Below, piece by piece: positions 6,474 to 64,000 of a stretch of 64,000 nucleotides of DNA. The DNA is taken from assembly GCF_001244545.1 (NCBI RefSeq), contig NZ_LN852693.1:75631-139630 (forward strand). Reading direction: 5' to 3'. Position numbers and translations under genes: made by a program. A model generated the notes under the pieces. The model ran no database searches, was not told where the DNA came from, and worked only from the letters and a program-made list of their open reading frames with translations. The number at the start of each line of letters is the position of its first letter. Position 1 is the first letter of the stretch. Origin of the DNA: Candidatus Stoquefichus sp. SB1. Its GTDB lineage: Bacteria; Bacillota_I; Bacilli_A; Erysipelotrichales; Coprobacillaceae.

Positions 6474-6481
6474 TTGTTTAA

Positions 6482-6518
6482 AATAATCATCTATAGGAAA
6501 ACTATAGATGATTATTTT
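6482..6518 (+). terminator. Terminator after rel
   Basis: A perfect 15-bp stem (6482-6496 with 6502-6516) with loop GAAAA, followed by TT. It separates rel from ndk. Confidence 0.85.
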
Positions 6519-6524
6519 GTATAT

Positions 6525-6556
6525 TTGACATCTTTTGAAAGCATTTATGATAAAAT
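6525..6556 (+). promoter_or_regulatory. Probable ndk promoter
   Basis: A consensus -35 TTGACA (6525-6530) is followed by an AT-rich -10 region, either TATGAT at 6546 (15-bp spacer) or TGATAA at 6548 (17-bp spacer). It lies between the rel terminator and the ndk ribosome binding site. Confidence 0.55.
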
Positions 6557-6586
6557 AATAGATATCCAAAGAAAAGAGGAAGAACA

Positions 6587-7072
6587 ATGAAACAATATAC
6601 GTATATGATGTTAAAACCAGATGCTTTTCAGGGCAATCAGCCAGATGCAATTTTAAAGATGATGGAAGACCATGGATTATGTGTTGAGTCGTCTCAGGTT
6701 GTTGAAGTCAATATGGATGTAATGAAGGTGTTATTAGAACATTATCATCAAGTGATTGATGATAAAGGTGCGGTCTTTAATTTCCCGGCTCGGTTATTTC
6801 ATACATTTTATTTTGATGGACCACATTGGATTATGCCAATGAAAGTGAGTTATACAGGAAGCGAAGATATTATTGCTTATTCTAGAAAATTGGTTGGAAA
6901 AACCAATCCAATTGAAGCAGCACCAGGAACCATACGTGGAACATTTAGTCATGATAATTATGATTTAGCCGATCAGGAAAATAGGCTTGTTAACAATGTT
7001 ATTCATGCTTCTGACTCAATCGAATCAGCTAAGCGAGAATTAGAGATTTGGAAAATGTATTTAGAAAAATAA
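6587..7072 (+). CDS. ndk: Nucleoside diphosphate kinase, divergent
   Basis: Transfers the gamma phosphate between nucleoside triphosphates and diphosphates through a phosphohistidine. The 161-residue protein keeps MLKPDA (8-13), GKTNPIEAAPGTIRG (about 103-117) and the active-site stretch NNVIHASDS (about 135-143, catalytic His), then ESA-REL-IW as in the family. It is longer than the usual 140-150: there is extra sequence in the Kpn-loop region (IDDKGAVFNFPARLFHTFYF) and between GTIRG and the catalytic His. AAGAGGAAGAAC lies just before the ATG. All key residues are present, so activity is likely. It is the last intact chromosomal gene before the decayed island. Confidence 0.88.
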   Translation: MKQYTYMMLKPDAFQGNQPDAILKMMEDHGLCVESSQVVEVNMDVMKVLLEHYHQVIDDKGAVFNFPARLFHTFYFDGPHWIMPMKVSYTGSEDIIAYSRKLVGKTNPIEAAPGTIRGTFSHDNYDLADQENRLVNNVIHASDSIESAKRELEIWKMYLEK

Positions 7073-7119
7073 ATTTTCAAAATATGAAAGTGTAAGGGCT
7101 TCCATTTTAAGAAGGATTG

Positions 7120-7128
7120 TGCTATTAT
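7120..7128 (+). promoter_or_regulatory. Extended -10 promoter for the 38-residue ORF
   Basis: TGCTATTAT (TGn plus a 5/6 -10 hexamer) lies about 43 bases before the small ORF. No clear -35. Confidence 0.4.
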
Positions 7129-7170
7129 ATAGATGTAGAAAAGGAAAGGACATGAAAGGAGGTCTTAGAG

Positions 7171-7287
7171 ATGTTAAATGATATGAAAATAAAAACTTTA
7201 TATTTAGGACCTGTATTCATGGTTAATCTTAATCTTCCAAAAGATTATCGATTAATAAGAGATTTGCTACCCCCTAACATACGTTAG
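7171..7287 (+). CDS. Small ORF, 38 residues, with a strong ribosome binding site
   Basis: Starts MLNDMKIKTLYLGPVFMVNL and ends LLPPNIR. GAAAGGAGG lies 8 bases before the ATG, among the best sites in the window, and an extended -10 lies upstream. I do not recognise the product. Two small hairpins sit at its end: CCTAAC/GTTAGG (7273-7278 with 7283-7288, loop ATAC) and GGCCT/AGGCC (7287-7291 with 7302-7306); they share two bases, so they cannot form together. It may be a real small protein, a leader peptide, or the 5' end of a gene whose remainder has decayed; in-frame stops follow quickly and no intact gene lies downstream. Confidence 0.4.
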   Translation: MLNDMKIKTLYLGPVFMVNLNLPKDYRLIRDLLPPNIR

Positions 7288-7539
7288 GCCTGAATTTAAA
7301 AAGGCCGTAAATATAAAAAAGTTCATGATATAGTAAAGAAAGATCATGATGGGTGAATGAGAAAGTTCATATTAATGTAAAAGTATTTGTTTGTTGGATT
7401 TGAATATTTGGTATTATAAATGAAATCGAAAGTATAAAATAGTTTTTAATTATTATTGTATCCATGATGAAATTGTAAGAATAAATGTCGCATATACCAA
7501 TAAGTAAGTTGCTAATATGAATGAGTAAAAAAAGACATG
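7288..7539. other. Intergenic stretch without a supported gene
   Basis: All three forward frames carry frequent stops and no ribosome binding site stands out. A minus-strand frame at 7367-7549 lacks a recognisable product and lies in sequence that looks decayed. Beyond the two small hairpins noted near 7273-7306 I see no structure. Confidence 0.4.
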
Positions 7540-7740
7540 ATGAAATCACTTTATGGAAAAGATGGAAACATCCTTCATGAGATTATCATTGAGTTGAAAC
7601 GAATTAACAAGTGTTTCTAGGATATGTAGGAAATGGAAAATAGAAAAGATAGTCAAAAAGAAATGAGCTTGTTAAAAGAGTGATATGAAAATGGTAAGCA
7701 AATAAATAATGAATATTATTTATGAGATTTATATAAATAA
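7540..7740 (+). pseudogene. Decayed coding remnant upstream of the insertion sequence
   Basis: One frame reads as plausible protein for about 66 codons, opening MKSLYGKDGNILHEIIIELK, but has in-frame stops at 7618, 7627, 7681, 7723 and 7738. The residues between the stops keep a charged, helix-like composition (for example KDSQKEMSLLKE), unlike random AT-rich sequence. No family recognised. I infer a gene that accumulated stop codons; chance is the alternative. Confidence 0.35.
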
Positions 7741-7774
7741 GTCACATAGAAGATAATATTTCTTCTTTATATAG

Positions 7775-7786
7775 GATAGGAGTCGA
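7775..7786. other. Left half of a hairpin split by the insertion sequence
   Basis: GATAGGA (7775-7781) pairs perfectly with TCCTATC (9404-9410) across the insertion sequence. With the element and one copy of its target duplication removed, the pair forms a 7-bp stem with a 10-base loop followed by TTTTCTT, as in a terminator. The element therefore landed in the loop. Confidence 0.55.
7779..7786 (+). repeat. Target site duplication, left copy
   Basis: GGAGTCGA, identical to 9391-9398. Eight bases is the duplication length known for ISL3-family elements. Confidence 0.9.
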
Positions 7787-7813
7787 GGCTCTGTGTCAAG
7801 AGTGGAGGATAAA
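7787..7813 (+). repeat. Left terminal inverted repeat of the ISL3 element
   Basis: Begins GGCTCTGTGTCAAGAG then TGGAGGAT. Matches the reverse complement of the right end at GGCTCT and at TGGAGGAT, with a diverged middle. Confidence 0.8.
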
Positions 7814-7820
7814 GGAATAA

Positions 7821-9263
7821 CTATTGAAAAATAGGGATTCCTTTTTTTCTGTCTTTATAAGTAAAAGTATAACTATATCCAAGATGTAAAAATATGCGTT
7901 TTCTTAAATTGTAGAAATATCTGAAACCATATGCATTCCTTTTGACAAGTTTGATTTTATTATTCATTCCTTCAATGAATCCATTATTAAAGCTCGTTCT
8001 ATATGATCTGTTTCTTCTTTTGTATATGGTTGTATAGGATAATGAACATAAAAGAGGAATAAACCATCTCTTTCTAAAGTTTTTAGCAGTTATCTGATAA
8101 TAACTATTTTGAGTATCAAAGATATAATCAAGCCATCTGTTTAATTCTTTTTTGTAGTCATTATGTTTTTCATGTATAAGTTTCAATAGATTCTGATAAA
8201 TTTCATAGTTATCAAGCATTTCTAAAATGACAAGAGAATCGAACATAGTATTATCATCACAGTCTTTATCATTTCTTCTTTCACTAAGATCATAAAGATA
8301 ATCAATATAGGAAGCACAGGTAAAGTATCTTTTCAGATGAAAATCATACCATGTCTTTTCATTATCCAGATCTTTTCTGAATTTATAGAATAATCGAAGC
8401 TGTCTTTTGATAGATTTAGCTAATGGCTGATAGTGAAGAGAAGAACAGGCATCGAGTCTTGACTGGATAAAATTCTGACCAGCAAGTCTGACGTAATGAA
8501 ACCTGTCACATATAATCTGGGCATGAGGGAAAAGAGAATGCATAATACAGTAAAAAGGACCAGAAAGATCCATAATGATAAACTTAACCTTCTTTCTTTC
8601 AGAGAAGGGAAACCTAAGGAAATAGTTTTTCAGGAAGGAAGCTTTTCTATCTTCGATAATATCAAGAGTTTTACCAGTGATAGGATTGACTATATTAAAA
8701 GCATAAGTTCCCTTATCGCTGGTAGCCTTAAATTCATCAATAGAGATAACAGAGGAAAGATGATAGAATCTATCAGGAATATGGATATTTTCACTGAAGA
8801 TGCGATACATAGTATTTTTACCAAGGCCATGCATTCTGGAGATGGAAGCCATAGAATGATTTTCATTCAATTCAAAAAGAGCGGACTGAACATTAGGAAT
8901 AGTAGCCTTTCTATTGTAAAACTGAAAAGGAATATCTTCAACGAAATAGGAAGAACAGTCATGACAAATATATCTGTGATAGGAAACCACAAGAACGACA
9001 GGGAGAGAGCCAAAGGAGAAATGCTTAAGATTGATAGATCTTGTTCCTTTAGATATGTGATGATTATATGAACCGCAGTGAGGACAGACAAGAGGAGAGA
9101 CTTGAGATTTAAGATGGATGAATAAAGTGAGAACACCGTTAGAATCAGGAACTTTTTTAAGACATGAAGAAGAATCATCAAAGGGAGCAGGAATAAAAAG
9201 ATGAGAAAAATGATTAATTTGTAGAATTTCAAGAATAAGATTGATATAATCAGAAGTGGACAT
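7821..9263 (-). CDS. ISL3-family transposase
   Basis: A 480-residue DDE-type transposase. The N-terminal zinc-binding region has CPHCGS and, later, CHDC (both within the first 110 residues), followed by a helix-turn-helix-like stretch (ASISRMHGLGKNTMYRIF). The catalytic core shows VISIDEFKA, IIMDLSGPF and the C-terminal NGFIEGMNNKIKLVKRNAYG that typifies ISL3 transposases. I chose the ATG at 9263 (MSTSDYIN) because GGAGG lies 9 bases upstream; an in-frame ATG 33 bases earlier lacks such a site. It fills the element between the terminal repeats and has no frameshift. Confidence 0.93.
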   Translation of the reverse strand: MSTSDYINLILEILQINHFSHLFIPAPFDDSSSCLKKVPDSNGVLTLFIHLKSQVSPLVCPHCGSYNHHISKGTRSINLKHFSFGSLPVVLVVSYHRYICHDCSSYFVEDIPFQFYNRKATIPNVQSALFELNENHSMASISRMHGLGKNTMYRIFSENIHIPDRFYHLSSVISIDEFKATSDKGTYAFNIVNPITGKTLDIIEDRKASFLKNYFLRFPFSERKKVKFIIMDLSGPFYCIMHSLFPHAQIICDRFHYVRLAGQNFIQSRLDACSSLHYQPLAKSIKRQLRLFYKFRKDLDNEKTWYDFHLKRYFTCASYIDYLYDLSERRNDKDCDDNTMFDSLVILEMLDNYEIYQNLLKLIHEKHNDYKKELNRWLDYIFDTQNSYYQITAKNFRKRWFIPLLCSLSYTTIYKRRNRSYRTSFNNGFIEGMNNKIKLVKRNAYGFRYFYNLRKRIFLHLGYSYTFTYKDRKKGIPIFQ

Positions 9264-50479: not shown

Positions 50480-51382
50480 GTGTTTATGTTTAAAAAAATA
50501 AGTATTATAGCTATGACATTATCTTTATGCCTTTTTGGTTGTTCAAAGGAGCCAGGCAAAGAATATCCTAGCCAATACCCTGATTCACCATCATATCAGA
50601 TTGATGATATCCTGTATCCAGAAAATCCAGGGACACATGTTTTAAAAAGCCAAGTTGCAAATGTTGATTATTCACATACTGATTTAGGATATGTGATGGC
50701 TTATTTGAATCAAAAGAGTGATGTGAAAATTAAAATCAAGATTTCTAAGGGTGAACAAAAATATTTTTATGATTTGACAAGTCAGCAACCGATTGCTTTT
50801 CCATTACAGATGGGAAATGGGGACTATTTAATATCAGTCTTAAAACAATATCAGGGAAATGATTATTATGTAGAAAAGACACAAAAAATTCAGGTGGAAT
50901 TACAAAATGAACTGACACCTTATTTATATCCTAATCAATTGGTTGATTATCAAAAAGGGGATATCATTACGACTAAAAGTATGGAAGTTGTTAAAGATGA
51001 TACAAATGATTTACAACGGATTAAAGATATTTATAATTATGTGGTTGATTATTTGAGTTATGATGATAATAAGGCAGTAGAAGCTACAAAGAAATATATT
51101 ATTCCTAATTTACAGGAATTATTTGTTGAAAAAAAAGGGATTTGTTTTGATTACGCTTCAATGATGACAGCGATGTTAAGAATTCAGCATATTCCAGCAC
51201 GATTAATATGTGGTAATACAGATATTGAATATCATGCCTGGGTAGAAGTGTATTTAGAAGGACAGGGATGGGTGAATCCAGATATTTTTGTTGATGAGAA
51301 AACATGGACAAGAATGGATCCAACTTTTGCAAGTTCGAAATTTGACTATAATGGACAGTATGAAGCTGTTTATTACTATTAG
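50480..51382 (+). CDS. Lipoprotein with transglutaminase-like domain
   Basis: A 300-residue lipoprotein (signal KKISIIAMTLSLCLFGC, lipobox LFGC). The C-terminal third is a transglutaminase-like cysteine protease fold with the triad visible: Cys in KGICFDYASMMTAML, His in IEYHAWVEVYLE, Asp in WTRMDPTF. Such domains act as peptidases or cross-linkers outside the membrane. GTG 50480 is 6 bases after AGGAGG; ATG 50486 is the alternative. It leads the pilus-like operon (11 bases to the next gene), which suggests a role in processing or anchoring surface protein. Confidence 0.82.
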   Translation: MFMFKKISIIAMTLSLCLFGCSKEPGKEYPSQYPDSPSYQIDDILYPENPGTHVLKSQVANVDYSHTDLGYVMAYLNQKSDVKIKIKISKGEQKYFYDLTSQQPIAFPLQMGNGDYLISVLKQYQGNDYYVEKTQKIQVELQNELTPYLYPNQLVDYQKGDIITTKSMEVVKDDTNDLQRIKDIYNYVVDYLSYDDNKAVEATKKYIIPNLQELFVEKKGICFDYASMMTAMLRIQHIPARLICGNTDIEYHAWVEVYLEGQGWVNPDIFVDEKTWTRMDPTFASSKFDYNGQYEAVYYY

Positions 51383-51393
51383 GAGGAAATCTT

Positions 51394-52422
51394 ATGAAAC
51401 TTAACTTTGAAGAAAAATATGCTTTTACAACACAAATGGCAATGATTTTAGATGCCGGTTTTGATATGATGGAAGGGGTTGAAATGATTGCCCAAGAATC
51501 AGAAAATATGCATATTCAATCTGTCTGTCAGGATATGCTTCGTTATTTTAAAGAAGATTCCCGTTTAAGTTATGCTGTTTTAAAAAGTGATGCATTCGAT
51601 CACTATATGATTCATTTGCTGGAAGTAGGCGAAATGAGCGGTCATTTAGATGAAGCAATGTTATCTCTTTCACAATATTATGAGCGTATGAATGACATGT
51701 CACGTCAATTACAGCAGGCACTGACTTATCCTATTGTGTTGTTGATGATGATGTTTGTGGTTATTGGAGTGATTGTTTTTAAGGTTTTACCTATTTTTGA
51801 AAATGTTTTAAAGAGTTTGGGAAGTGATTTATCACAATATGCTTATACATTTATGCGTTGTGGTCAGATTTTTTCATTCATCGGATTTTGTATTCTCTTA
51901 TGTGTATTATTATTGATGATTGCTTTCTATGTTTATGCTAAGATTACACATACAAGTTTATTGACTTTGTTTATTGATAAGGTACCATTGATGAAAAAAC
52001 TATCTCAGGCACTTTCACGAGCACAAATGACGTATGCTTTATCGATGTTTATGTCTAGTGGATATGAATTAGAAAATGCGGTTGAATATACAATTCCTTT
52101 GGTTCAGGAAAAAACGTTACAAAGTCAGTTAAAAAACTGTTTGCAGGATATGCGTAATCAGATTTCTTTTTTGGATGCAATTGCTAAATATCATATTTAT
52201 CAGGGAATGAAATTAAATATGTTGCAGGTTGGTGAAAAAACTGGACGAATTGATCAGGTTTTATCTAAATTGGCAATGACTTACCAGGATGAAGTGAATG
52301 CTTCAATTACCCATTTTTTAAATGTTGTTGAACCTGCAATTGTAACATTTTTATCAGTTATTGTTGGTATTGTATTGTTATCAGTCATGTTACCAATTGT
52401 TAGTATTTTATCTTCTTTATAG
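51394..52422 (+). CDS. Type IV pilus/type II secretion inner-membrane protein (PilC/GspF/ComGB-like)
   Basis: A 342-residue platform protein with two T2SSF domains. The first (about 1-115) has LLEVGEMSGHLDEAM and ALTYPIVLLMMMF; the second has MLQVGEKTGRIDQVL and VVEPAIVTFLSVIVG. Three membrane segments are visible, near 110, 170 and 320. It normally couples cytoplasmic ATPases to pilin assembly. AGGAGG lies before the ATG. Within the operon it is followed by small membrane proteins and PilT. Confidence 0.9.
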   Translation: MKLNFEEKYAFTTQMAMILDAGFDMMEGVEMIAQESENMHIQSVCQDMLRYFKEDSRLSYAVLKSDAFDHYMIHLLEVGEMSGHLDEAMLSLSQYYERMNDMSRQLQQALTYPIVLLMMMFVVIGVIVFKVLPIFENVLKSLGSDLSQYAYTFMRCGQIFSFIGFCILLCVLLLMIAFYVYAKITHTSLLTLFIDKVPLMKKLSQALSRAQMTYALSMFMSSGYELENAVEYTIPLVQEKTLQSQLKNCLQDMRNQISFLDAIAKYHIYQGMKLNMLQVGEKTGRIDQVLSKLAMTYQDEVNASITHFLNVVEPAIVTFLSVIVGIVLLSVMLPIVSILSSL

Positions 52423-52431
52423 GTATTGCTT

Positions 52432-52731
52432 ATGAAAAATATTGGAAAAATATTATTTTTGTTCATCGTTGTAGCTATGATATGGACAGGGGTTCAACAG
52501 GCTGGTTCTTATTCAGAAAATGAAGATCTTCAAAGAATCAGTGATACCATTTATCAATTGAGTTTAAAGTGTTATAGTATTGAAGGAAAATATCCTCAAG
52601 ATATTCATTATTTAAAAGACTATTATGGATTATTAGTTAATGAAGATGATTATCATATTCTTTATCATTATGAAGGGGATAATATTCAGCCAACAATTCA
52701 TGTTTATAAGAAGGTGAAAGATTATGAATAG
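52432..52731 (+). CDS. Small single-pass membrane protein, pseudopilin-like
   Basis: A 99-residue protein with an N-terminal membrane segment (about 4-22, ILFLFIVVAMIWTGV) and a short outer domain. LSLKCYSIEGKYPQDIHYLKD resembles the G-YP--L--L pattern of pseudopilin bodies, but no GFxxxE prepilin cleavage site precedes the hydrophobic stretch. ATG 52432 is preferred over TTG 52426. It overlaps the next gene by 8 bases. Assignment as pilus component is inferred from context. Confidence 0.6.
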   Translation: MKNIGKILFLFIVVAMIWTGVQQAGSYSENEDLQRISDTIYQLSLKCYSIEGKYPQDIHYLKDYYGLLVNEDDYHILYHYEGDNIQPTIHVYKKVKDYE

Positions 52732-53173
52732 ACAGTTTCATATTCAGACGCTCTTGTTTCTATTGTTGTTTCTGATTTTTGTGATTGGATCGTTTTTCAT
52801 TGTTTCAAGTGAGATACAGGGGTATCAGAATATTCATAAAAGTATAACTTTAGAGGATGATTTATCAACACCACTTGCTTATCTCAATACAAAGATAAAA
52901 AGTTATGACCAAAAAGATATGATTGAGATAGTGACATTAGAAAAGAGTACATGTTTAAAATTGAGTGATAATGAAACATCAACTTATATTTTTTATAAAG
53001 ATGGTTATTTACAGGAGGTTACTGTTGCTTTTCAATATGTTCCTTCATTAGATGAAGCAGAAAAATTATTTGCGTTAGATGATATGCAAGTGACTATTAA
53101 TCATCAGATGTGTGCTATAATGGTGAAAAAAAGTGATCAGATGAAAAGGTTATCACTATATTTACATGGGTAA
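52724..53173 (+). CDS. Small single-pass membrane protein of the pilus-like operon (DUF4860-like)
   Basis: A 149-residue protein with an N-terminal membrane segment (LLFLLLFLIFVIGSFFIVSS, about 10-29) and an outer domain with two Cys. I think it fits the DUF4860 family of Firmicute pilus-type operons, but this is recalled, not searched. AAGGTG lies before the ATG; overlap with the preceding gene implies coupled translation. Confidence 0.6.
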   Translation: MNRQFHIQTLLFLLLFLIFVIGSFFIVSSEIQGYQNIHKSITLEDDLSTPLAYLNTKIKSYDQKDMIEIVTLEKSTCLKLSDNETSTYIFYKDGYLQEVTVAFQYVPSLDEAEKLFALDDMQVTINHQMCAIMVKKSDQMKRLSLYLHG

Positions 53174-53185
53174 AGGAGGATTATC

Positions 53186-53554
53186 ATGCAATCTAAAGTT
53201 CATTCATTCTCTTATTTGATGGAGTTGATTATTGTTATATTTTTCTTTACCATTTCTACAACGATATGTGTTTCTTTAATAGTGAAAGCAAAAGAAAAAC
53301 AAACTGATGCTAAACATTTACAAGATACTTTATTGAATGTTCAATCAATGATTGAAACAATGCAGGCTTATCCTCAAAAAAATCCTGAAGAATTATTTGT
53401 GCTTACAAAAATAGATGAGCATACATATCAAGGCGATTCTTTTGTTTTAAAAATATATAGTGATAAGACAAAACATGGTGAAATTCAAATTTATCAAGGT
53501 GAGACATGTGTAGAAGAATTTCCTTTTGTTTTAGGAGGAATACACAATGAATAA
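53186..53554 (+). CDS. Small pilin-like membrane protein
   Basis: A 122-residue protein whose N-terminus HSFSYLMELIIVIFFFTIST recalls the prepilin signature (a Glu just before a long hydrophobic helix), with SYLMEL where the canonical form is GFTLIEL. Helix then outer domain with one Cys. The glycine before the cleavage point is absent, so processing is uncertain. AAGGAGG lies before the ATG. It overlaps the next gene by 8 bases. Confidence 0.6.
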   Translation: MQSKVHSFSYLMELIIVIFFFTISTTICVSLIVKAKEKQTDAKHLQDTLLNVQSMIETMQAYPQKNPEELFVLTKIDEHTYQGDSFVLKIYSDKTKHGEIQIYQGETCVEEFPFVLGGIHNE

Positions 53555-53939
53555 AGAGAGACATGAATTTCATATGAGTGTTGGGGCAGCAACAATTTTT
53601 ATGATTTTTGTTATTTTGGTGATGAGTGTTTTATCTATTTTGTCTTATTTAAGAGCGAAAAGTTATGATGAATCAATTATGAGACAAGTGATAAAAACAA
53701 GCGAATATTATCAAAGTGAAGCAAAATTGATGGATTGTTATTATCAATTGGATGTTAAAAATATTGAACATCAATTAAAAACGATGAATAGGGATTATAT
53801 TTATCAAAATGGTCATTATATAATTGAAGAGAATGTTGATGAAAATCGTATTTTAAAATTGACTTTTTCAATAGATAGTGAAAAATTAGAAATCATTTCT
53901 TTAAAGACAGAAAGTAAGGAGAAAACGTATGGGAGCTAA
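53547..53939 (+). CDS. Small single-pass membrane protein of the pilus-like operon
   Basis: A 130-residue protein with the segment SVGAATIFMIFVILVMSVLS (11-30) as membrane anchor and a helical outer region with a YYQ-rich stretch. Similar SVGAA-type proteins occur near PilT in other gut Firmicutes by my recollection. AGGAGG lies before the ATG; the gene overlaps pilT by 11 bases. Function unknown. Confidence 0.6.
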   Translation: MNKERHEFHMSVGAATIFMIFVILVMSVLSILSYLRAKSYDESIMRQVIKTSEYYQSEAKLMDCYYQLDVKNIEHQLKTMNRDYIYQNGHYIIEENVDENRILKLTFSIDSEKLEIISLKTESKEKTYGS

Positions 53940-54984
53940 GGAATTATTAGAAAATGTGGTGGCAATGAAGGCTTCAGATGTCTTTATTATTGCTGGTTCG
54001 CCATGTGTTGTGAAGAGAGATGGAAAAATTGAAAGATATAATGAACAAAGATTGCTTCCTCAAGATACTGAGAAGCTAATTCGTGAAATCTATGAGATTG
54101 CTCAAAAAGATGATATTGATGTGTTTATGAAAACAGGCGATGATGATTTTTCTTTTTCTATTCCAAGTGTTGGGCGTTTTCGTGTGAATGTTTATAAACA
54201 AAGAAATTCTTTTGCAGCTGTGATTAGAATTGTGAGTTTTGAATTGCCGGATCCTCATGATTTGCAAATTCCTTCTATTGTTACAGATTTAGCAAAGTTA
54301 AAAAAAGGACTTGTGCTTGTGACAGGACCAGCAGGCAGTGGAAAATCAACGACCTTAGCATGTATTATTGATCAAATTAATCGTCAACGTAATACACATA
54401 TTATTACTATTGAAGATCCAATTGAATATTTACATACTCATCATAAAAGCATTGTTTCTCAGCGTGAAGTTTATCATGATACAAAGGATTATGTTTCTGC
54501 TTTAAGAGCAGCTTTAAGAGAAGCACCTGAAGTGATTTTAGTAGGAGAAATGCGTGATTTAGAGACTATGGATATTGCAATCACAGCAGCTGAAACAGGA
54601 CACTTGATTTTTTCGAGTTTACATACATTAGGGGCAGCCAATACAATTGATCGTATGATTGATGTTTTTCCATCATCACAGCAACAACAGATTCGCGTTC
54701 AGCTTTCAATGGTATTAGACGCAGTGATTTCTCAACAGTTACTTCCTAGTACAGATGGAAAAATGGTTCCTGTGTTTGAAGTGATGATTTGTAATCAGGC
54801 GATTCGGACTTTGATTCGTGAAGGAAAAACGCATCAGATTGATAATGCGATTGCTTCACAACGTCATAATGGAATGATAACAATGGATGAAGCCATTGTT
54901 GAATTATATCGTCAAAATAAAATTACCAAAGAAACTGCATTAATGTATGCAGCACATGCCAATTTAATTGAGAAGAAGTTATAG
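53929..54984 (+). CDS. pilT: PilT-type type IV pilus retraction ATPase
   Basis: A 351-residue hexameric secretion-type ATPase. The PilT-specific N-terminus KASDVFIIAGSPCVVKRDGK is followed by Walker A GPAGSGKST (133-141), the Asp box ITIEDPIEYLH, Walker B ILVGEMRDLETM, the His box FSSLHTLGAANTIDR and the PilT hallmark AIRTLIREGK. Length fits PilT, not the longer PilB/GspE. It normally depolymerises pili using ATP. It is the only ATPase in this operon. AAGGAG precedes the ATG; the gene overlaps its neighbour. Confidence 0.93.
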   Translation: MGAKELLENVVAMKASDVFIIAGSPCVVKRDGKIERYNEQRLLPQDTEKLIREIYEIAQKDDIDVFMKTGDDDFSFSIPSVGRFRVNVYKQRNSFAAVIRIVSFELPDPHDLQIPSIVTDLAKLKKGLVLVTGPAGSGKSTTLACIIDQINRQRNTHIITIEDPIEYLHTHHKSIVSQREVYHDTKDYVSALRAALREAPEVILVGEMRDLETMDIAITAAETGHLIFSSLHTLGAANTIDRMIDVFPSSQQQQIRVQLSMVLDAVISQQLLPSTDGKMVPVFEVMICNQAIRTLIREGKTHQIDNAIASQRHNGMITMDEAIVELYRQNKITKETALMYAAHANLIEKKL

Positions 54985-55008
54985 AGGATGTTCACATCCT
55001 TTTTATTA
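54985..55008 (+). terminator. Terminator of the pilus-like operon
   Basis: A 6-bp stem AGGATG / CATCCT (54985-54990 with 54995-55000), loop TTCA, then a T-rich run. Confidence 0.75.
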
Positions 55009-55143: not shown

Positions 55144-55162
55144 AAAAAGAAGGAGAATGATT

Positions 55163-56344
55163 ATGGAAAATAGACCAGTCTTGAACATTCAAACATTAGG
55201 AAAATTACGGATTTCATGTGGAGAGACGGTATTTCCTTTAGAGCGACAAAGAAGTGCCCAAGTTGAGTTACTAATTGTTTATTTAATTTTAAATCGTAAT
55301 ATGAATTTGACATCTTCACAATTAATTGATTTTTTATGGCCGGATGGTGATTCAGATAAACCTGAAGGTGCTTTGCGTAATCTTGTTTATCGTGCAAGAA
55401 AAGAAATGAAAAAATTTTTTGATGATATCAATTGTATTCAATCTCAGGGACGTGGGTATTATTGGAACTTAGATATTGAGTGTAAAATTGATTATGAAGA
55501 AATCATGAAGATGGCAAGTCGAGTTGAACAGGAAAGTGATTGGTTAAGAAAGTATGAAAAATGCTTAACATTATTGTCACTTTATCAAAATAACTTCTTG
55601 CCAGAATTTAATTATAATGATTGGATCATGCAAATGAATAATGCTTTAGAAGTGACTTGCTTAGATACTATTTTGCATACTTTTGACGTTTTGGTACAAC
55701 ATCAAAAGTATAATGAAATTTTAAAAATAACGAATCATCCACATATTCAAAATCTCTTAGATTCACGTTTATATGAGATGAAACTTTATGCATACTATAA
55801 ATCAGAACAATATGATACAGCTTTATCATTTTATCGTCAGACTGTTGATCTTTATTATAGTCGTTATGGAATGCCAGTTTCTCAGAAATTTAAAGGGATT
55901 TATCAATTAATTTTAGATACGATTCCAACTGCCCAAGTTGATGTAGATGAATTAGAGGAAAATTTAAATCATAATGGTAATGTAGATACAACATTTTATT
56001 GTGATTTTGAGGTTTTTAAAAATATTTATCAAGTGAATTTACGTTCGGCTAGACGTTCTATGAAAGCTCGTGTATTAGCACTGTTAACATTGGAAGATGA
56101 AACTTCTACATTATCTGAAAAACAGATTCAAGAAGAAGCGGGTATTTTAAGAAACGTTATTGCGAGTAGTTTACGTAAAAATGATGTTTTTTCTAAATTC
56201 AATATGACACAATTTTCATTAATTATTGCTTCGCCTGATCTTGATGGAGCAAGAATTGCTGTCAATCGTATTCAAAAACGTTATGATGAAAAAAAGAAAC
56301 ATGATGAGATGATATTGAAATCAGATTTGAAAAAGATTAATTAG
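55163..56344 (+). CDS. BTAD-type transcriptional regulator with a degenerate GGDEF-like C-terminus
   Basis: A 393-residue protein. The N-terminus is an OmpR-type winged helix of the AfsR/SARP kind (IQTLGKLRISCG, LEGALRNLVYRAR-like segment reading PEGALRNLVYRARKEM), followed by a tetratricopeptide-like BTAD domain (about 110-250). The last 120 residues resemble a GGDEF domain by LRKNDVFSKFNMTQFSLII, where NMTQF replaces GGDEF, so it cannot be a cyclase but might still bind a nucleotide. ATG 55163 has AAGGAG 7 bases upstream. It lies 11 bases before the giant surface protein gene and probably controls it. Confidence 0.8.
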   Translation: MENRPVLNIQTLGKLRISCGETVFPLERQRSAQVELLIVYLILNRNMNLTSSQLIDFLWPDGDSDKPEGALRNLVYRARKEMKKFFDDINCIQSQGRGYYWNLDIECKIDYEEIMKMASRVEQESDWLRKYEKCLTLLSLYQNNFLPEFNYNDWIMQMNNALEVTCLDTILHTFDVLVQHQKYNEILKITNHPHIQNLLDSRLYEMKLYAYYKSEQYDTALSFYRQTVDLYYSRYGMPVSQKFKGIYQLILDTIPTAQVDVDELEENLNHNGNVDTTFYCDFEVFKNIYQVNLRSARRSMKARVLALLTLEDETSTLSEKQIQEEAGILRNVIASSLRKNDVFSKFNMTQFSLIIASPDLDGARIAVNRIQKRYDEKKKHDEMILKSDLKKIN

Positions 56345-56355
56345 GAGGGAACGAA

Positions 56356-59300
56356 ATGAAAAAAATAAATGGCTTGTTGAAGAAAATAAGCGTTATTTTT
56401 CTAGCATTGACAATCGTTATGTCTTTGATTCAGTGGAGTGCTTTCAATCATGTCAATGCAAGTGAAAAAGCAATTGCGAATGTGACTTTTACTTCACAGA
56501 TTGTCACAAATGTTGGAGATAGTACATCAACTATTTCTAGTATAGAAACAGGAGCTCCCTTCTTTCTGGCATTAAGATATAATGTCAATTCTGGTGGGGA
56601 TAATGTACAATATAAAAGTTGTCAGATTTCTATAACTTTGCCTAGTTCTATTGAATTTGAAGAACTGGCAATTCCAGAGGGAACAACTTCTGTCTTTAAT
56701 AGTGCAAGAGTAGATAGTCTTGGAAAAATTAAAGTATTAAGAATTGATGCCGCAGATACATTAGAACCAGGGAATAGTGGAACGGTTTATCTGAAAATGC
56801 ATTTTAAAAATATGGAAACAACTGATGGTACAGTTGCTATTTTCGATGATATGGAAATGACAGGATTTGAACAAGCAGGGAATGTCGCAACTGAATTAGA
56901 AGGAGTTAAAATTCCAAGTGCAAAGATGACTGCTGTTGCTAATCAGGAGTGGACAATTAATAAAACAGTACAAAAACAAGATGGACAAGATACAAGTATT
57001 GTTGAAATTAATGGTGAAAAATTTTATAAAGTCAATTATCAAATAACAATTCGACCTGGTGCTGAAAATGTCAGTGCAAATCGTTATGGACGTTTAAACT
57101 GTGATCCTTTTATTTTAAAAGACATTTTACCTGATGGTTATCCAGATAAAGGAGAACCTCAATTATCTGAAATTAAAGTAGGAGACAAAATTTTGGTCAA
57201 AGATACAGATTATGTTATTGGCAAAGATGAACAAGGTAAAGACTATATTCAATTAAATTATGTCAATAAATATGATGGATCCGATAGCCAAAGCTTCATT
57301 CCAAAAGGAGCAGCTATTAATACAACGTATTCAATGACATTGTTATATAATTATGATGCTTATATGATTCGTCAAACTGAAGAATTTATTCAAAAAACTT
57401 TGACAAATGCAGCAACTTTAACTTATCAGCCGATAGGTAAAGAAAAAAAGACAGTAAGCAGTAGTGCGCCAGTTTTACTTGGTTGGCAAGAACAAGACCA
57501 GATGCATGTTGACTTTACAGTTACTAAAAAAGCAACTGTCAAAGCAACAGGAACGCCTTCTATAGGTATAGATGATACAAAAGTCTTTGATAAGACTTTA
57601 CAAAACATTTATTATCATAATGATTCAGATCATATTCAATTTGGTTTGTATATAGATAAAAATTGTACAACTTTAGCTAAAGATAATAATAATCAAGTTG
57701 TTAATCTAATCGCAATCGATGAAAATGGACAGGCAACTTTTAAGGATATTCCTTATGGAACTTATTATTTAAAAGAAGTTGGTGGTCCAAGTTTATTTAA
57801 AAATGATGGTGTTAAAGTTGTTGTGATTGATAGAAAAGATGGTTCAATGACTGTAGATAATCAAAAAGTAGAGAATGGTCATATTGATTTTATCAATACA
57901 ACTGATGATAAGGGATATGGTTATGTTGCTTTTTGGAAACGTGGATCAAGTGCGACTTCTAAAGATACAGGATGGTTAGCTGACGTAGGCTTTACTTTAA
58001 CAGATAGCAAAGGAAATACTTACAATGCAACATCAGATAAAAATGGTTTGGTTTTATTTGAAGGGATTCCAGCAGGAGACTATACAATTACTGAAAATAA
58101 AACAGATGATGGTGAATTTGAAGTTTCTACAGATTCATGGAAAATCACTGTGAAAGGAAATCAAGTTAATTATCCTGCAGGAATGAACGAATATAAAGAA
58201 AACGAAAATGTTTATCCATATGTTCAAAATGTTTCTAATAAAGGGAAATTAAAATTTATTAAGCAATCAAGTATTGATGAAAAAGGCTTGAATGGTGCTG
58301 TTTTTGAACTCTATGTTCCAGATAATTTAAATAAAGAATGGACTGCAGAGGAATTAAAAAACTTAGATACAAGTACGTTTAAGAATAAGCATACATTAGA
58401 TTGTGGTGATGGTTCATCTATAGAATCACCTGCTTTACAGCCTGGAATATATTTATATCGAGAAGTGAAAGCTCCAACAGGCTATACACTTGATTCTGAA
58501 TTAAAAACAGTGGTTGTAAAACAAAATGAACTTGTTGAAGTCAAGGTAGAGAACATTCCACAAGGAAAACTCATTGTTTACAAATATGGTAAACTTTCAT
58601 TAGAACATCCATTTAAAGTGCCATTGGAAGGTGCAGAATTTAAAATCTATACAGATAAGAATGCTACTGAAACTGTTAAGGATAGTAAAGGTGAAGATAT
58701 TGTTATTAAACCATATATACCGTTTAATGATAGTACAAGTGCTGTGTCTGATCCTGTATTTTTAGATGCAGGAACATACTATTTAAAAGAAACAAAAGCA
58801 CCAGATGGATATCAAATGTCAGATAAAATAATTGAATTTACGATTACTGTTAATCAAGAAACAGGAATAAATGTCGATAATGCAGTTAAACATCAGGGGT
58901 TTGTTAGTTTGCATAAAACAGATGCAAAAGATTCTGGTAAAAGTCTTCAAGGTGCAGAATTTGAAATTAAGGATTTAAGTGGTAAAGTTGTTGACACTTT
59001 AATAACAGATGAAAATGGAAATGATCAATCAAAATTCCTTCCTTCTGGAAAATATACATTAGTCGAAACAAAAGCTCCAGATGGGTATATTCTTTTAACA
59101 AAAGAAGTTCAATTTGAGATTAATGATAATGAAGAAACTAAAATTACTAATACTGATATAGCCAATATTCCTTATATGAAATATCAGTTTACAAAAGTTG
59201 ATTCAACTACAAATAAACCTATTGAAGGTGTGACTTTCCGTTTGTATGAAGAAAATCCAGACCATAATTCAAGTGCTTCTTACCGTGAGATGAGAAGTGA

Positions 59301-62300
59301 TAAAAATGGTATTGTGACATTTGATAATCTTGTTAATGGAAAGACATATTATTTTAAAGAATCAGCAACGAAAAACGAATATACACTAGATACAACAGTT
59401 TATTCATTTACTGCTAATATTGATAAGACAACTCAACTGTCTAATAGTTGGGTACAACAAGGAAATCCAATAGAGAATCATCCTAAAGGAAAATTTACGA
59501 TTCATAAAAAACTAATAGGTATGGATTCTATAGGTACTTCTAATCTTAAAGGAATTACTTTTAGATATTATCCAAAATTGACTGAAGACTTTATTAAAGA
59601 TCGAGAAACAGCTAAAAAAGAGAATACTTATCAAACATTAGGAACAACACCAGAAAATGGAAAACTTCAATCTAAACTTCTTGATGCAGGTGAATATTGG
59701 GTAGAAGAGGATAAGAATGATAGTTATAATCCAATTGATCCGCAAGTTGTGACAGTAAAAGAGGGGATAACTGATAATAAAAATGAGGATTCAGGATTAT
59801 TTGTAATTAATAATACCTATGCTAAAGGAAAACTGAAACTCAAGAAAATCAGTTCCACTGATAAGAAAGGAATTGATGTCACTTTCTCAGTTTATAAAAA
59901 AGTACCTAATCTTGTTGATTATTCAGGGCAAAAGGTAATATTTACTGTACGTACTGATGCTGCAGATGGAACAGATATTGGTGAAAAATTGAGTACCCAT
60001 TGGTTTGATCCTGGTGATTATGTTTTGGTTGAAAAAGAAATTCATAGTGGTTCTTATATTTTGGACAAAACACCTCATGAGTTTACAATTGAGGCTGGGA
60101 AAACAAATACAAAATATTATGATGATCCGATTCTTAATGTTCCATCAAGTTCTCTTTCATTAAAAAAATATGAATCATGGAGTTCTGTTGGGCAAGAAGA
60201 AGTTAATTTTGTTTCAAAAGGATTCAAATTTAAAATTTATCATGCAATTGAGTGTGATGCCTCTATAGAAGGTGCACTTGAACTTAATGGTTCGTATTAT
60301 AAAAAGGGAACTGATACTGGTGAAACAATCACTAGTGGTGAAGATAAAGTAAGTTTAGACCAATTATATGCAGGTTTCTATATTGTTGAAGAAGTTTTAA
60401 CCGCTGAACAAAAGGCGGAAGGATACTCTCAAGCACAATCTCAGGTTGTCGAATTGAAATCTGGAGAAGAAACATTAGTTACTTTTAAAAACAAGAATGC
60501 AAATAGCAAGATTAAAATCACGAAGGTTGATGCAGAAAATCATGAGAAACTTCTTGATGACGCTGAATTTGAAATTTATCGTCTCGCTGAAGGTAGTGAA
60601 ATAAGTGAAGAAATCATGATAGGTGATCAAACATATCATGTTGTTTCAGCAAACTTGAAATATACGATTAAATCTGGAACTGCTATTATTTATGATAGTA
60701 ATGGGCAGGAAATCACTCAAACTGGTGTTGGATATTCTGGATTCTTAAAACCAGGTGAAACTTATTTCTTAAAAGAAACAAAGACACCTGATGGATATGA
60801 AGCAAGTCAGATTTGGACAAAAGTTGGACCGTTAGTCAGTGGTCAATTGTCAGAAGTGACAATTGAAAACTATAAACCAAAAGAAGCAATCGGAAGCAAG
60901 GTTGATGGTCTAGGTAATAAGGTACAAGGTGCTACATTTGCACTCTTCTCATCGAAATTAAATGCTGATGCTGTTGCTCAATTAACAGATGAACAATTGG
61001 CAACACTAGCAACAAATGAGGATATGCAAAATCAATATCATGTTTTACAAGTTACGACATCTGATAAGAATGGACAAATCAAATTTACGAATTTAGATGT
61101 AACACAAACTTATTATGTGTTAGAGATTAAAGCTCCAACGGACAAAGATAATCATCCAACTCATGAAAGAGACAAGCAAGTCCATGAAGTTAAAATTCAA
61201 GTCAATGGTAATCAATATTCTCTCATTGATAAGAAAACAAATGAAATATTATCAGTTGTCAATTATTTATATCAAAGAATTTGGATAAATAAGACTTTTA
61301 CATTTGCTAAAGAAACAAAACCTCTAAATGGTGTTAATTTTAATGTCTATGCAGCAGTAAAAACTGATAGGCCTGAAGAAGCAGTGATTACAAAGGATGG
61401 TATATCTTATAAATTAGGGGACAAAGTTGATACTTTACACACTGGAACAGATACAACTCAAGGTGATGGTGGCGCCATCAGTATTAGGTTACCAGCGGGA
61501 GTCTATATTATTGAAGAAGATGGTTCTTCACTACCTAATCATGGATTAATTGTTAATGATACAAATCGTTATCATATTGTAGAATTAACAAATATTGATA
61601 AGAATAATCCAACAGACAATAAAGATTTATATACAAATCCAATTAACAATACAACTGAATATGGTTCTTTCTATTTCAATAAAGTTTCTAATGTTAATGA
61701 TAAAAAGCTGAAGGCTACATTTACATTGCAAGTCAAAGGAAATGATGGACAGTATACTGATTATAAACTTAATAACAATATTGTCAAAATAGAAACTGAT
61801 GGAACAAATATTTTCAAATTTTATGAAAAATATAATGCTCTTTTACCAGTAGGAAGTTATCAGTTAAAAGAAGTCAGTGTTGAATCTGGTTATACAATGA
61901 GTGAACCAATTCAATTTGAGATTCAAGCTGGAAAAATAACTGGAATGGACAATGGAACTATCACTTATTATGAATCAGCAACTGAGGCTGCTACCAATCC
62001 ATTAGTTATGGTTAATAATGCTCAAGGTCATTTAAATCTTAAAAAGATTGGTAGACGCATATATGAAAATAATTTGACTGAAGACAAGGCTTTAGCAGGT
62101 GCTGAGTTTGAAATTTATAAATATAAATTAAAGAATGGTCAATTGCAGTTAGACGAAAAAGTGGGAACAGGGTTGTCACAATCTAATAGTCAAATTGAAT
62201 TCTATAATTTGGAAAAGAAAAATGTAACAAATACAAACTGGTTGGATGCAGGTGACTATGTTATTAAAGAAATATCTGTAGGAGAGTCTAATGAAAAACT

Positions 62301-64000
62301 TGGTTATAAAGCAGGATATTTAGGCAAATTCACAATTATTAGCAATCAACTTACAAAAGAAGTGACAGAAATTGATAATAGTGGTCAAGTGATAGGCCAA
62401 CCTGGAGAGTCTATCATTAACGAATCATTATATGGTCGTTTTACCATTCAAAAAGTTGATCAGTATAATCCAAATAAAAAACTAAAAGGTGTTGAATTTG
62501 AAATCTATACAAAAAATGGCTTGAAATATACAAAAGTCAATGCTGAGAATATGGTGACAAATGATGAAGGAATTGCTAAATCACCATTATTACCAGCAGG
62601 AAATTATTATTTAAAAGAAGTAAAGACTTTAGGTGGATACGTCTTAAATAGTGAATACTTAGGACCATATATAGTTAATAAACAAGAAGTAACACAATCT
62701 GTTTCAGTTACAAATGTTATGAAACAATCTCTTAAGGTTATTAAGATTGATTCGGAATCAAAAAATGAAATCACTAATTTAAAGGGTACAACTTTTGAAT
62801 TGTATCAAAATAAGACTGACAATAAGCCACTTCAAGTCGCCACTTATGAAGAAAATATAGGTATTGTCTTTAATGATTTAAAAGCAGATACAACTTATTA
62901 TCTTAAAGAAATTAAGGCGCCAGCAGGATATGAATTGAAGTCAGATTTTATTGAAGTGAAAACTGGAAAATCACAAGATGATTCAACAAATCCGGTTGTT
63001 ACAGAAATCAAGGTTAAAAACGATTTGTTAGGAAGTTTGATAATTCAAAAGGTTGCTCAATGGGATATGCCAGGAAGTACTTCGCAAAAATTACCATTAA
63101 GTGGTGTTGAATTTACTTTGTATAAGGCTGATGGCACGACTGTTGTGACTAAAGATGTGACTGATACTAATGGAGAGTTATTGTTTATTGGTCTTGCACA
63201 GGGAGATTATGTTCTTAAAGAAACAAAATCTATTGAAGGTTTTGCAGCAAATAACGAAACTTATGATGTTAAGATTGTAAAAGGAAAACAAAATACTGTT
63301 TATACAGGTGAAAAGGCAATTGTTAATAATCCTATTTTAGGTAAGTTTGAATTTACAAAAGTTGATGCTGCTAATAATCCGTTATCAGAAGCAAAATTCC
63401 GATTAATTCATATAGATGACAATAACAAGGAAACTGTTGTCTTTAATGAGTTTAAAACAAATGATAAAGGTTATTTTGCATCAAGAATGTTAGATCTAGG
63501 TCATTATCGCTTAGAAGAAATCGAAGCACCTGATGGTTTTGCTAAAATTGAACCTATTACATTTGATATTGTTGCAAAACAAATTACACGTTTAGGTATT
63601 GATGGTAAGATTACGGATCATGCTCAAGGTGAAATTACGATTGTTAAATATAATGATGTAAGTGATTATTTAGGTGGTTCAAATGAAACATTAGCCGGTG
63701 TTCATTTTGGTTTGTATACTTCTAACAATAAGCTTATTGAAGAAAAAGTGACAGATGCAAATGGTAAGATTGTTTGGGAAAATGTTGATCCTGGAAACTA
63801 TTATGTTCAGGAAATTAATTCTAAAGATAATCCTCAAGGATACAAATATAGTGATAAATCATACAATGTAGAAGTAAAGAGTGGTGAAGCAACATTAGTT
63901 AATTATCATCCTGAAGGTACAACAGGTGGAGAAATCATTAATTATTCAACGATGGGTAAAATTGTTGTTAAGAAGTTAGATAAGAATAATTCTGCTTTAA
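56356..64000 (+). CDS. Giant secreted surface protein with SpaA/Cna-B-type repeats (partial, 3' end beyond window)
   Basis: The frame is open from ATG 56356 to the last base, at least 2548 codons. It starts with a signal peptide (MKKINGLLKKISVIFLALTI, cleavage probably after VNA at about residue 35), then an N-terminal region of about 420 residues without clear repeats. From about 57.5 kb come SpaA/Cna-B-like modules. The module hallmark, a YxLKExxxPxGY-type E-box, appears about 19 times: near 57757, 58075, 58441, 58771, 59047, 59338, 59689, 60013, 60373, 60754, 61105, 61498, 61855, 62251, 62599, 62890, 63202, 63499 and 63793. Such domains form internal Lys-Asn/Asp isopeptide bonds and build stiff stalks or pili. 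The C-terminus and any LPxTG anchor lie outside. AGGAGGG precedes the ATG. Confidence 0.92.
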   Translation, partial: MKKINGLLKKISVIFLALTIVMSLIQWSAFNHVNASEKAIANVTFTSQIVTNVGDSTSTISSIETGAPFFLALRYNVNSGGDNVQYKSCQISITLPSSIEFEELAIPEGTTSVFNSARVDSLGKIKVLRIDAADTLEPGNSGTVYLKMHFKNMETTDGTVAIFDDMEMTGFEQAGNVATELEGVKIPSAKMTAVANQEWTINKTVQKQDGQDTSIVEINGEKFYKVNYQITIRPGAENVSANRYGRLNCDPFILKDILPDGYPDKGEPQLSEIKVGDKILVKDTDYVIGKDEQGKDYIQLNYVNKYDGSDSQSFIPKGAAINTTYSMTLLYNYDAYMIRQTEEFIQKTLTNAATLTYQPIGKEKKTVSSSAPVLLGWQEQDQMHVDFTVTKKATVKATGTPSIGIDDTKVFDKTLQNIYYHNDSDHIQFGLYIDKNCTTLAKDNNNQVVNLIAIDENGQATFKDIPYGTYYLKEVGGPSLFKNDGVKVVVIDRKDGSMTVDNQKVENGHIDFINTTDDKGYGYVAFWKRGSSATSKDTGWLADVGFTLTDSKGNTYNATSDKNGLVLFEGIPAGDYTITENKTDDGEFEVSTDSWKITVKGNQVNYPAGMNEYKENENVYPYVQNVSNKGKLKFIKQSSIDEKGLNGAVFELYVPDNLNKEWTAEELKNLDTSTFKNKHTLDCGDGSSIESPALQPGIYLYREVKAPTGYTLDSELKTVVVKQNELVEVKVENIPQGKLIVYKYGKLSLEHPFKVPLEGAEFKIYTDKNATETVKDSKGEDIVIKPYIPFNDSTSAVSDPVFLDAGTYYLKETKAPDGYQMSDKIIEFTITVNQETGINVDNAVKHQGFVSLHKTDAKDSGKSLQGAEFEIKDLSGKVVDTLITDENGNDQSKFLPSGKYTLVETKAPDGYILLTKEVQFEINDNEETKITNTDIANIPYMKYQFTKVDSTTNKPIEGVTFRLYEENPDHNSSASYREMRSDKNGIVTFDNLVNGKTYYFKESATKNEYTLDTTVYSFTANIDKTTQLSNSWVQQGNPIENHPKGKFTIHKKLIGMDSIGTSNLKGITFRYYPKLTEDFIKDRETAKKENTYQTLGTTPENGKLQSKLLDAGEYWVEEDKNDSYNPIDPQVVTVKEGITDNKNEDSGLFVINNTYAKGKLKLKKISSTDKKGIDVTFSVYKKVPNLVDYSGQKVIFTVRTDAADGTDIGEKLSTHWFDPGDYVLVEKEIHSGSYILDKTPHEFTIEAGKTNTKYYDDPILNVPSSSLSLKKYESWSSVGQEEVNFVSKGFKFKIYHAIECDASIEGALELNGSYYKKGTDTGETITSGEDKVSLDQLYAGFYIVEEVLTAEQKAEGYSQAQSQVVELKSGEETLVTFKNKNANSKIKITKVDAENHEKLLDDAEFEIYRLAEGSEISEEIMIGDQTYHVVSANLKYTIKSGTAIIYDSNGQEITQTGVGYSGFLKPGETYFLKETKTPDGYEASQIWTKVGPLVSGQLSEVTIENYKPKEAIGSKVDGLGNKVQGATFALFSSKLNADAVAQLTDEQLATLATNEDMQNQYHVLQVTTSDKNGQIKFTNLDVTQTYYVLEIKAPTDKDNHPTHERDKQVHEVKIQVNGNQYSLIDKKTNEILSVVNYLYQRIWINKTFTFAKETKPLNGVNFNVYAAVKTDRPEEAVITKDGISYKLGDKVDTLHTGTDTTQGDGGAISIRLPAGVYIIEEDGSSLPNHGLIVNDTNRYHIVELTNIDKNNPTDNKDLYTNPINNTTEYGSFYFNKVSNVNDKKLKATFTLQVKGNDGQYTDYKLNNNIVKIETDGTNIFKFYEKYNALLPVGSYQLKEVSVESGYTMSEPIQFEIQAGKITGMDNGTITYYESATEAATNPLVMVNNAQGHLNLKKIGRRIYENNLTEDKALAGAEFEIYKYKLKNGQLQLDEKVGTGLSQSNSQIEFYNLEKKNVTNTNWLDAGDYVIKEISVGESNEKLGYKAGYLGKFTIISNQLTKEVTEIDNSGQVIGQPGESIINESLYGRFTIQKVDQYNPNKKLKGVEFEIYTKNGLKYTKVNAENMVTNDEGIAKSPLLPAGNYYLKEVKTLGGYVLNSEYLGPYIVNKQEVTQSVSVTNVMKQSLKVIKIDSESKNEITNLKGTTFELYQNKTDNKPLQVATYEENIGIVFNDLKADTTYYLKEIKAPAGYELKSDFIEVKTGKSQDDSTNPVVTEIKVKNDLLGSLIIQKVAQWDMPGSTSQKLPLSGVEFTLYKADGTTVVTKDVTDTNGELLFIGLAQGDYVLKETKSIEGFAANNETYDVKIVKGKQNTVYTGEKAIVNNPILGKFEFTKVDAANNPLSEAKFRLIHIDDNNKETVVFNEFKTNDKGYFASRMLDLGHYRLEEIEAPDGFAKIEPITFDIVAKQITRLGIDGKITDHAQGEITIVKYNDVSDYLGGSNETLAGVHFGLYTSNNKLIEEKVTDANGKIVWENVDPGNYYVQEINSKDNPQGYKYSDKSYNVEVKSGEATLVNYHPEGTTGGEIINYSTMGKIVVKKLDKNNSAL

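Follow-up and report, generated by a model that had tools for sequence, protein, structure and literature searches.

Type IV machines are generally considered to depend on an assembly ATPase and on pilins that are cleaved, and PilT is presented in teaching as the motor of retraction. The closest described systems are the type IVa pilus of monoderms (PilB, PilT, PilC and PilD), the competence pseudopilus of Bacilli (ComGA to ComGG), the type II secretion pseudopilus (GspE, GspF and GspG to GspK) and the Tad pilus with its single bidirectional ATPase (CpaF/TadA). Here, we investigated a seven-gene operon at positions 50480–54984 of a 64,000-nucleotide stretch of Candidatus Stoquefichus sp. SB1 (the window; C3:75631–139630 of genome G000 in our numbering), which comprises in this order a transglutaminase-like lipoprotein (TGL), a platform protein (PilCx), four small membrane proteins (S1 to S4) and a PilT-family ATPase (PilTx). 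In our preferred reading, which we give a probability of roughly 0.55, the operon encodes a self-contained, reduced machine of the type IV filament superfamily that has one PilT-type ATPase and works at the surface of the cell together with the lipoprotein. The composition and autonomy of the operon are well supported, and its function, filament formation and processing are what we infer. Searches of the open-access literature returned no description of the operon or system and no paper naming DUF4860 (PF16152), the family without assigned function to which S2 belongs. In the survey of Denise et al., a system had to have an ATPase and a platform as well as a recognised major pilin (PMC6668835), so that a survey of this type would overlook one in which no pilin can be recognised.

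The operon shares traits with each of the described systems. Like the ComG system, it is compact, lacks PilM, PilN and PilO, and has a ComGB-sized platform followed by small pilin-like genes, with S1 similar by profile to ComGC, S2 to ComGF and S3 to ComGE or ComGD. A ComG assignment would call for a ComGA-type ATPase and a class III ComGC, whereas the ATPase of the operon belongs to the PilT family, S1 and S2 carry no class III signals and TGL is present; moreover, genomes with the operon often hold a separate comG operon. Homologues of PilT and PilC are shared with the type IVa pilus, but the operon lacks PilB, PilD, PilM/N/O and a processed major pilin of class III (G↓xxxxE), and no PilB paired with the locus was found. 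Across 69 carrier genomes (43 from the taxonomic order of the window and 27 named ones, with Faecalibacillus intestinalis, G027/G529, in both sets), PilB was not found in 44. The type II secretion pseudopilus also has one ATPase, one F-type platform and about one each of G-, I-, J- and K-like subunits, possibly with a link to an exported enzyme, but it differs from the operon in that here the motor is PilT-like, the hosts are Gram-positive, no secretin is encoded and the subunits have no cleavage motif. As in the Tad pilus, one motor could serve both directions; however, the ATPase family differs, there is only one platform gene, and TadA, Flp pilin and TadV are all absent from the operon, while Tad coexists as a separate locus and the TadA-type ATPases of other carriers belong to such loci. 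We class the operon within the type IV filament superfamily, as a variant distinct from the type IVa, ComG, Tad and type II systems.

An earlier note, made from the DNA letters alone, had placed a seven-gene operon of these families at this position, with gaps of at most 12 bases or overlaps from the second gene on. The open reading frames (ORFs) and coordinates, verified base by base, and the profile matches agree with that description (Table 1), and the spacing consists of gaps of 9–12 bases and overlaps of 8–11 bases. Of the single promoter and single terminator that it had also reported, the terminator was recovered as a terminator-like hairpin; the promoter did not rise above chance, as a scan found no plus-strand site in the gap upstream of the operon, where TTGTTT-17-TATAAT plus AGGAGG can be seen by eye. 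The SYLMEL it had pointed out is present in S3 and keeps the pilin Glu5.

Table 1. Positions (in the window) of the operon genes and of adjoining features, with the evidence for each assignment
Feature	Position	Strand	Description	Evidence
TGL	50486..51382	+	lipoprotein with transglutaminase-like domain, first operon gene	PF01841 Transglut_core 1.7e-22; alternative GTG start 50480
PilCx	51394..52422	+	PilC/GspF/ComGB-like membrane platform, two T2SSF repeats	PF00482 T2SSF 8.4e-38
S1	52432..52731	+	small pilin-like protein, resembles GspG/ComGC, no class III signal	AF2 model, hhalign
S2	52724..53173	+	DUF4860, pilin-like (ComGF/GspJ-like)	PF16152 4.2e-16, AF2 model
S3	53186..53554	+	I-type minor-pilin-like (ComGE/PilV/GspI), SYLMEL with Glu at +5	invariant Glu; ComGE/PilV matches by relatives
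S4	53547..53939	+	small single-pass protein, K-type/ComGG-like (weak)	invariant Gly before hydrophobic helix; no Glu5
PilTx	53929..54984	+	PilT-family ATPase, clade apart from canonical PilT	TIGR01420 pilT_fam 435 bits, tree, motifs
Terminator	54983..55002	+	terminator-like hairpin 3' of PilTx	3 sites in region vs 1.5 expected
BTADreg	55157..56344	+	SARP/BTAD-type regulator with degenerate GGDEF-like tail; probable regulator, not machine part	recurrence near operon

Together, the homologous ATPase and platform place the operon in the type IV filament superfamily. The score of PilTx against the PilT family model lies well above the cut-off of 319 bits, which puts it within the PilT/PilU family, and the solved PilT 2gsz is its match in the PDB (4e-97). 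In a tree with canonical PilT proteins of the same groups, 89 of 90 PilTx sequences formed one clade (support 99/99), the sole unplaced one being that of locus L187. The catalytic motifs are intact, including Walker A and B and the Asp and His boxes, with GPAGSGKS, GEMRD, EDP and ETGH conserved. In the alignment, GPAGSGKS replaces GPTGSGKS in 71 of the 90 sequences and SD(I/V/L)F replaces SD(I/V/L)H in most, and as judged from these aligned positions the two changes set PilTx apart from canonical PilT. PilCx lacks the N-terminal ~60 residues of GspF, as the GspF model was matched from position 59.

The four small proteins look like divergent pilin-like proteins and not like generic anchors. 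Single-protein scans of S1, S3 and S4 of the window against Pfam and NCBIfam gave only noise, so that relatives were needed, and no match to the N_methyl prepilin signal was found in the operon. The AlphaFold model of S1 (pLDDT 94.5) has a long N-terminal helix (residues 2–51), a short helix and two strands, and that of S2 (pLDDT 93.4) a 59-residue N-terminal helix plus two sets of four consecutive strands; the plan of pilins is a long N-terminal helix plus a beta sheet (PMC6916266). Residues Y48, G52, P55 and P87 of S1 are invariant. Profile comparison with hhalign paired S1 with ComGC at 88% (reversed controls at most 17%) and S3 with ComGD at 59% with the Glu aligned, while the best ComG partner of S2 was ComGF at 33% only. 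Relatives of S3 matched ComGE (8.6e-07) and PilV (7e-05), in 6 of 47 members each, and the S3 profile had weak matches to PilE1 and PilA in the PDB. In S4, Gly13 is kept in 50/50 members and Glu5 is absent. A strict cleavage motif was found in only 1/66 S1 and 1/59 S2 sequences, compared to 21/22 for ComGC, which suggests that S1 and S2 retain their N-terminal segment. The unprocessed anchors proposed in the earlier note are thereby borne out as regards the missing cleavage motif of S1 and S2, and revised as regards their nature, which is pilin-like.

Several observations weigh against the reading of a self-contained machine with one motor. Foldseek found no match for S1 or S2 in the PDB with E≤0.001: the top TM-scores of S1 were to pilins (4d40, 6xxd) and one pilin reached a probability of 0.72 for S2, all below significance. 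The homology of S4 is weak, with two members that matched the ComGG model (5e-04). In loci L161 and L179, PilT does not adjoin the other six genes. Finally, an A24 peptidase is encoded outside the operon in 41 of the 43 order carriers and 26 of the 27 named ones, so that processing of S3 and S4 in trans is possible, given that residue −1 of S3 is Gly in 8 and Ser in 21 of 47 members. These peptidases lead to an alternative that we regard as unlikely, if still worth weighing, in which the operon makes a divergent short pilus or ComG/T2SS-like pseudopilus: S3 and S4, and perhaps also S1 and S2 at unusual sites, would be cleaved by a borrowed Tad, Com or Pil peptidase and PilTx would replace the assembly ATPase. 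It gains from the presence of a peptidase in 67 of 70 carrier checks, from the constancy of the Gly in S4 and of the Glu at +5 in S3 (47/47), and from the MSH pili, which also have no peptidase of their own and may borrow one (PMC6668835). In Extibacter muris and Dorea D27, the A24 peptidase frame (214 residues) and the Tad locus are on different contigs, which favours this alternative as well. The missing class III motif of S1 and S2 counts against it, as does residue −1 of S3, which is not conserved (nine Phe, including that of the window, and nine others besides the Gly and Ser), and no peptidase match was obtained in G061 (92% complete), G161 (99%) and the metagenome-assembled genome G555.

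The assembly that contains the window (3.59 Mb, 100% complete) was searched as a whole, as the earlier note had advised, which revealed a comG operon and, at another place, a complete type IV pilus locus, both separate from the operon. It encodes four T2SSE ATPases above the cut-off, three platform genes, one A24 peptidase and nine N_methyl prepilins. The pilus locus (C3:170.6–183 kb) contains GFTLIE pilins, PilD, PilC, PilM, a PilO-like protein, minor pilins, a 557-residue PilB and PilT, and the comG operon lies at C3:292.7–296.3 kb. The claim that PilB, pilins and prepilin peptidase are lacking is therefore correct for the operon and wrong for the genome, which has all three elsewhere. Likewise, the first of the two options offered, namely that the rest of the system lies elsewhere, is right in that PilB, PilD, PilM and pilins do occur on C3, but these two loci each have their own platform and ATPase, so that the operon is a third system and not a missing half. 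Since the other ATPases of this genome belong to the pil and comG loci, Tad is not a constant partner of the operon either. An N_methyl prepilin of ~280 residues was also noted at G000:C5:540879–540959, away from all three type IV loci.

Support is better for the other option, that of a reduced machine with one PilT-type ATPase, as many carriers lack PilB, ComGA or both. Full-length PilB was present in 21 and not in 22 of the 43 order carriers, nearly all of which have a ComGA-sized ATPase, and 22 of the 27 named carriers (genomes of unstated completeness) were without PilB; 19 of these 22 had no N_methyl prepilin match anywhere. Exactly two ATPases of this kind are encoded in Extibacter muris and in Dorea D27: PilTx, and a 413-residue protein whose best family is TadA, below the TadA cut-off. 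For G061, neither PilB, ComGA, a peptidase nor a prepilin was matched. A general pairing of the operon with the type IV pilus or comG locus of the same genome was rejected, as carriers without those keep the operon. We consider it quite improbable that the operon is an accessory retraction module that adds a second PilT and platform to another pilus of the same cell (type IV pilus, Com or Tad). Nearly all carriers do have another type IV system, which speaks for such a module, but this partner varies by lineage (both a type IV pilus and Com in the window genome, Com alone or Tad alone in others, and none found in G061), the operon has a platform and four pilin-like genes of its own, and in the window genome a canonical PilT already adjoins PilB. 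That the partner system varies while the operon persists argues for an autonomous machine.

Conservation of the operon was followed through DUF4860 and TGL. DUF4860 was detected in 48/196 genomes of the order of the window, in 13/393 genomes of its phylum, all within the same order, and, in the phylum to which Coprococcus comes belongs, in 13/399 highly complete genomes. In 20 loci from the order the gene order is kept, although in a few of them one small gene or another escaped the simple ORF picker, and TGL was not detected in L075. Scanning the GTDB species genomes with a TGL profile gave at least 592 relatives, and among the best 80 named loci, 67 have the full seven-gene set in the same order, which answers the earlier note's call for a comparison of gene order, and 3 have the full set with TGL shifted between S4 and PilT; the other 10 are mostly interrupted by contig ends. 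No same-strand PilT follows S4 in L182 and L187. In the six-gene version of L161 and L179, S4 is followed by large secreted-looking ORFs (1224 residues; 744 and 628 residues). The operon spans two GTDB phyla, with Coprococcus comes, Dorea, Pseudobutyrivibrio, Acetobacterium and Faecalibacillus among its hosts, and since its gene order is constant while the small proteins are often only 20–30% identical, it stands well beyond chance. The patchy distribution of DUF4860 in the order and in the phylum of C. comes could also mean that the operon is what is left of a type IV pilus or competence locus in decay, and one copy looks disrupted (L064 in G105, positions 4526–8850, with a transposase-like ORF between S4 and S3 and PilC split in two frames). 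With seven genes intact over two phyla, invariant residues and intact catalytic motifs, however, decay is a very remote prospect. A phage or viral origin was rejected, as one scan of viral contigs with patterns from close relatives gave no match.

TGL belongs to the transglutaminase-like superfamily by its profile match and a candidate Cys-His-Asp triad (C220/H250/D278), which is invariant in 20 relatives together with the lipobox Cys19. Its closest solved relative is 3isr, annotated as a putative cysteine protease (4.6e-11). TGL stays in the gene set even when it is moved, and is therefore an integral part of the system. In the mechanism that we propose, a PilTx hexamer would act on PilCx like PilT in pili, turning or pulling this platform, and the movement of PilCx would shift a short, membrane-held set of pilin-like proteins, resembling the G/I/J/K subunits of a pseudopilus and not a long fibre. 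The stroke might then present TGL, or work on it, at the outer side of the membrane for the processing of the envelope or of surface proteins. PilTx as the single motor may be bidirectional or provide a pulling stroke only. A single motor is plausible because PilT is needed for extension as well as retraction of the MSHA pilus (PMC9815625) and because CpaF acts in both directions (PMC11300603, PMC12019362).

The surroundings of the operon also recur. In 29 of 97 loci, across two phyla, a BTAD regulator is encoded no more than 6 kb away, and the tail of one relative has a weak GGDEF match (a degenerate cyclase-like domain). Membrane proteins with a GGDEF domain occur nearby in 27/97 loci, a cluster with ECF sigma factors and an anti-sigma-looking protein in 24/97, and SpaA-repeat proteins within ~3 kb in 7/97. 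These neighbours suggest surface-linked regulation, and the SpaA proteins are possible substrates of the operon in a minority of loci. In many Lachnospiraceae (L128, L129, L138, L153, L154 and others), a GGDEF membrane protein with a degenerate signature, an ECF sigma factor and a probable anti-sigma factor are found, mostly upstream of TGL. In the window, a 4107-residue SpaA-repeat surface protein is encoded downstream of the BTAD gene (positions 56356–64000, continuing in L011 to ~68679 in window-equivalent numbering) and ends in an FPLTG sorting-like signal, and similar proteins adjoin the operon in L056, L058, L067, L182, L063 and L183. A small family of ~141 residues without Pfam match adjoins the BTAD regulator in 17 loci (among them L065, L075, L109, L153, L162, at 8570–8995, and L165). 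Neighbours resembling SipW/TasA, which inspection by eye had picked out in a few loci, were rejected as a general partner, as the motif occurred in 1/97 loci.

More tentatively, and at somewhat less than even odds, we propose that the operon represents a separate class derived from type IV filaments, with neither prepilin processing nor an assembly ATPase, in which PilT alone would drive unprocessed pilin-like subunits and so, from across the membrane, supply power to a lipoprotein enzyme at the surface of many Firmicutes of the gut. The hosts of the operon include common genera of the human gut, and many of the gut Clostridia and Erysipelotrichales that carry it lack both PilB and any ordinary pilin gene. 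If widespread, a natural PilT-only system would be a test of the ability of PilT to drive assembly or other work, and of pilin-like subunits to act uncleaved.

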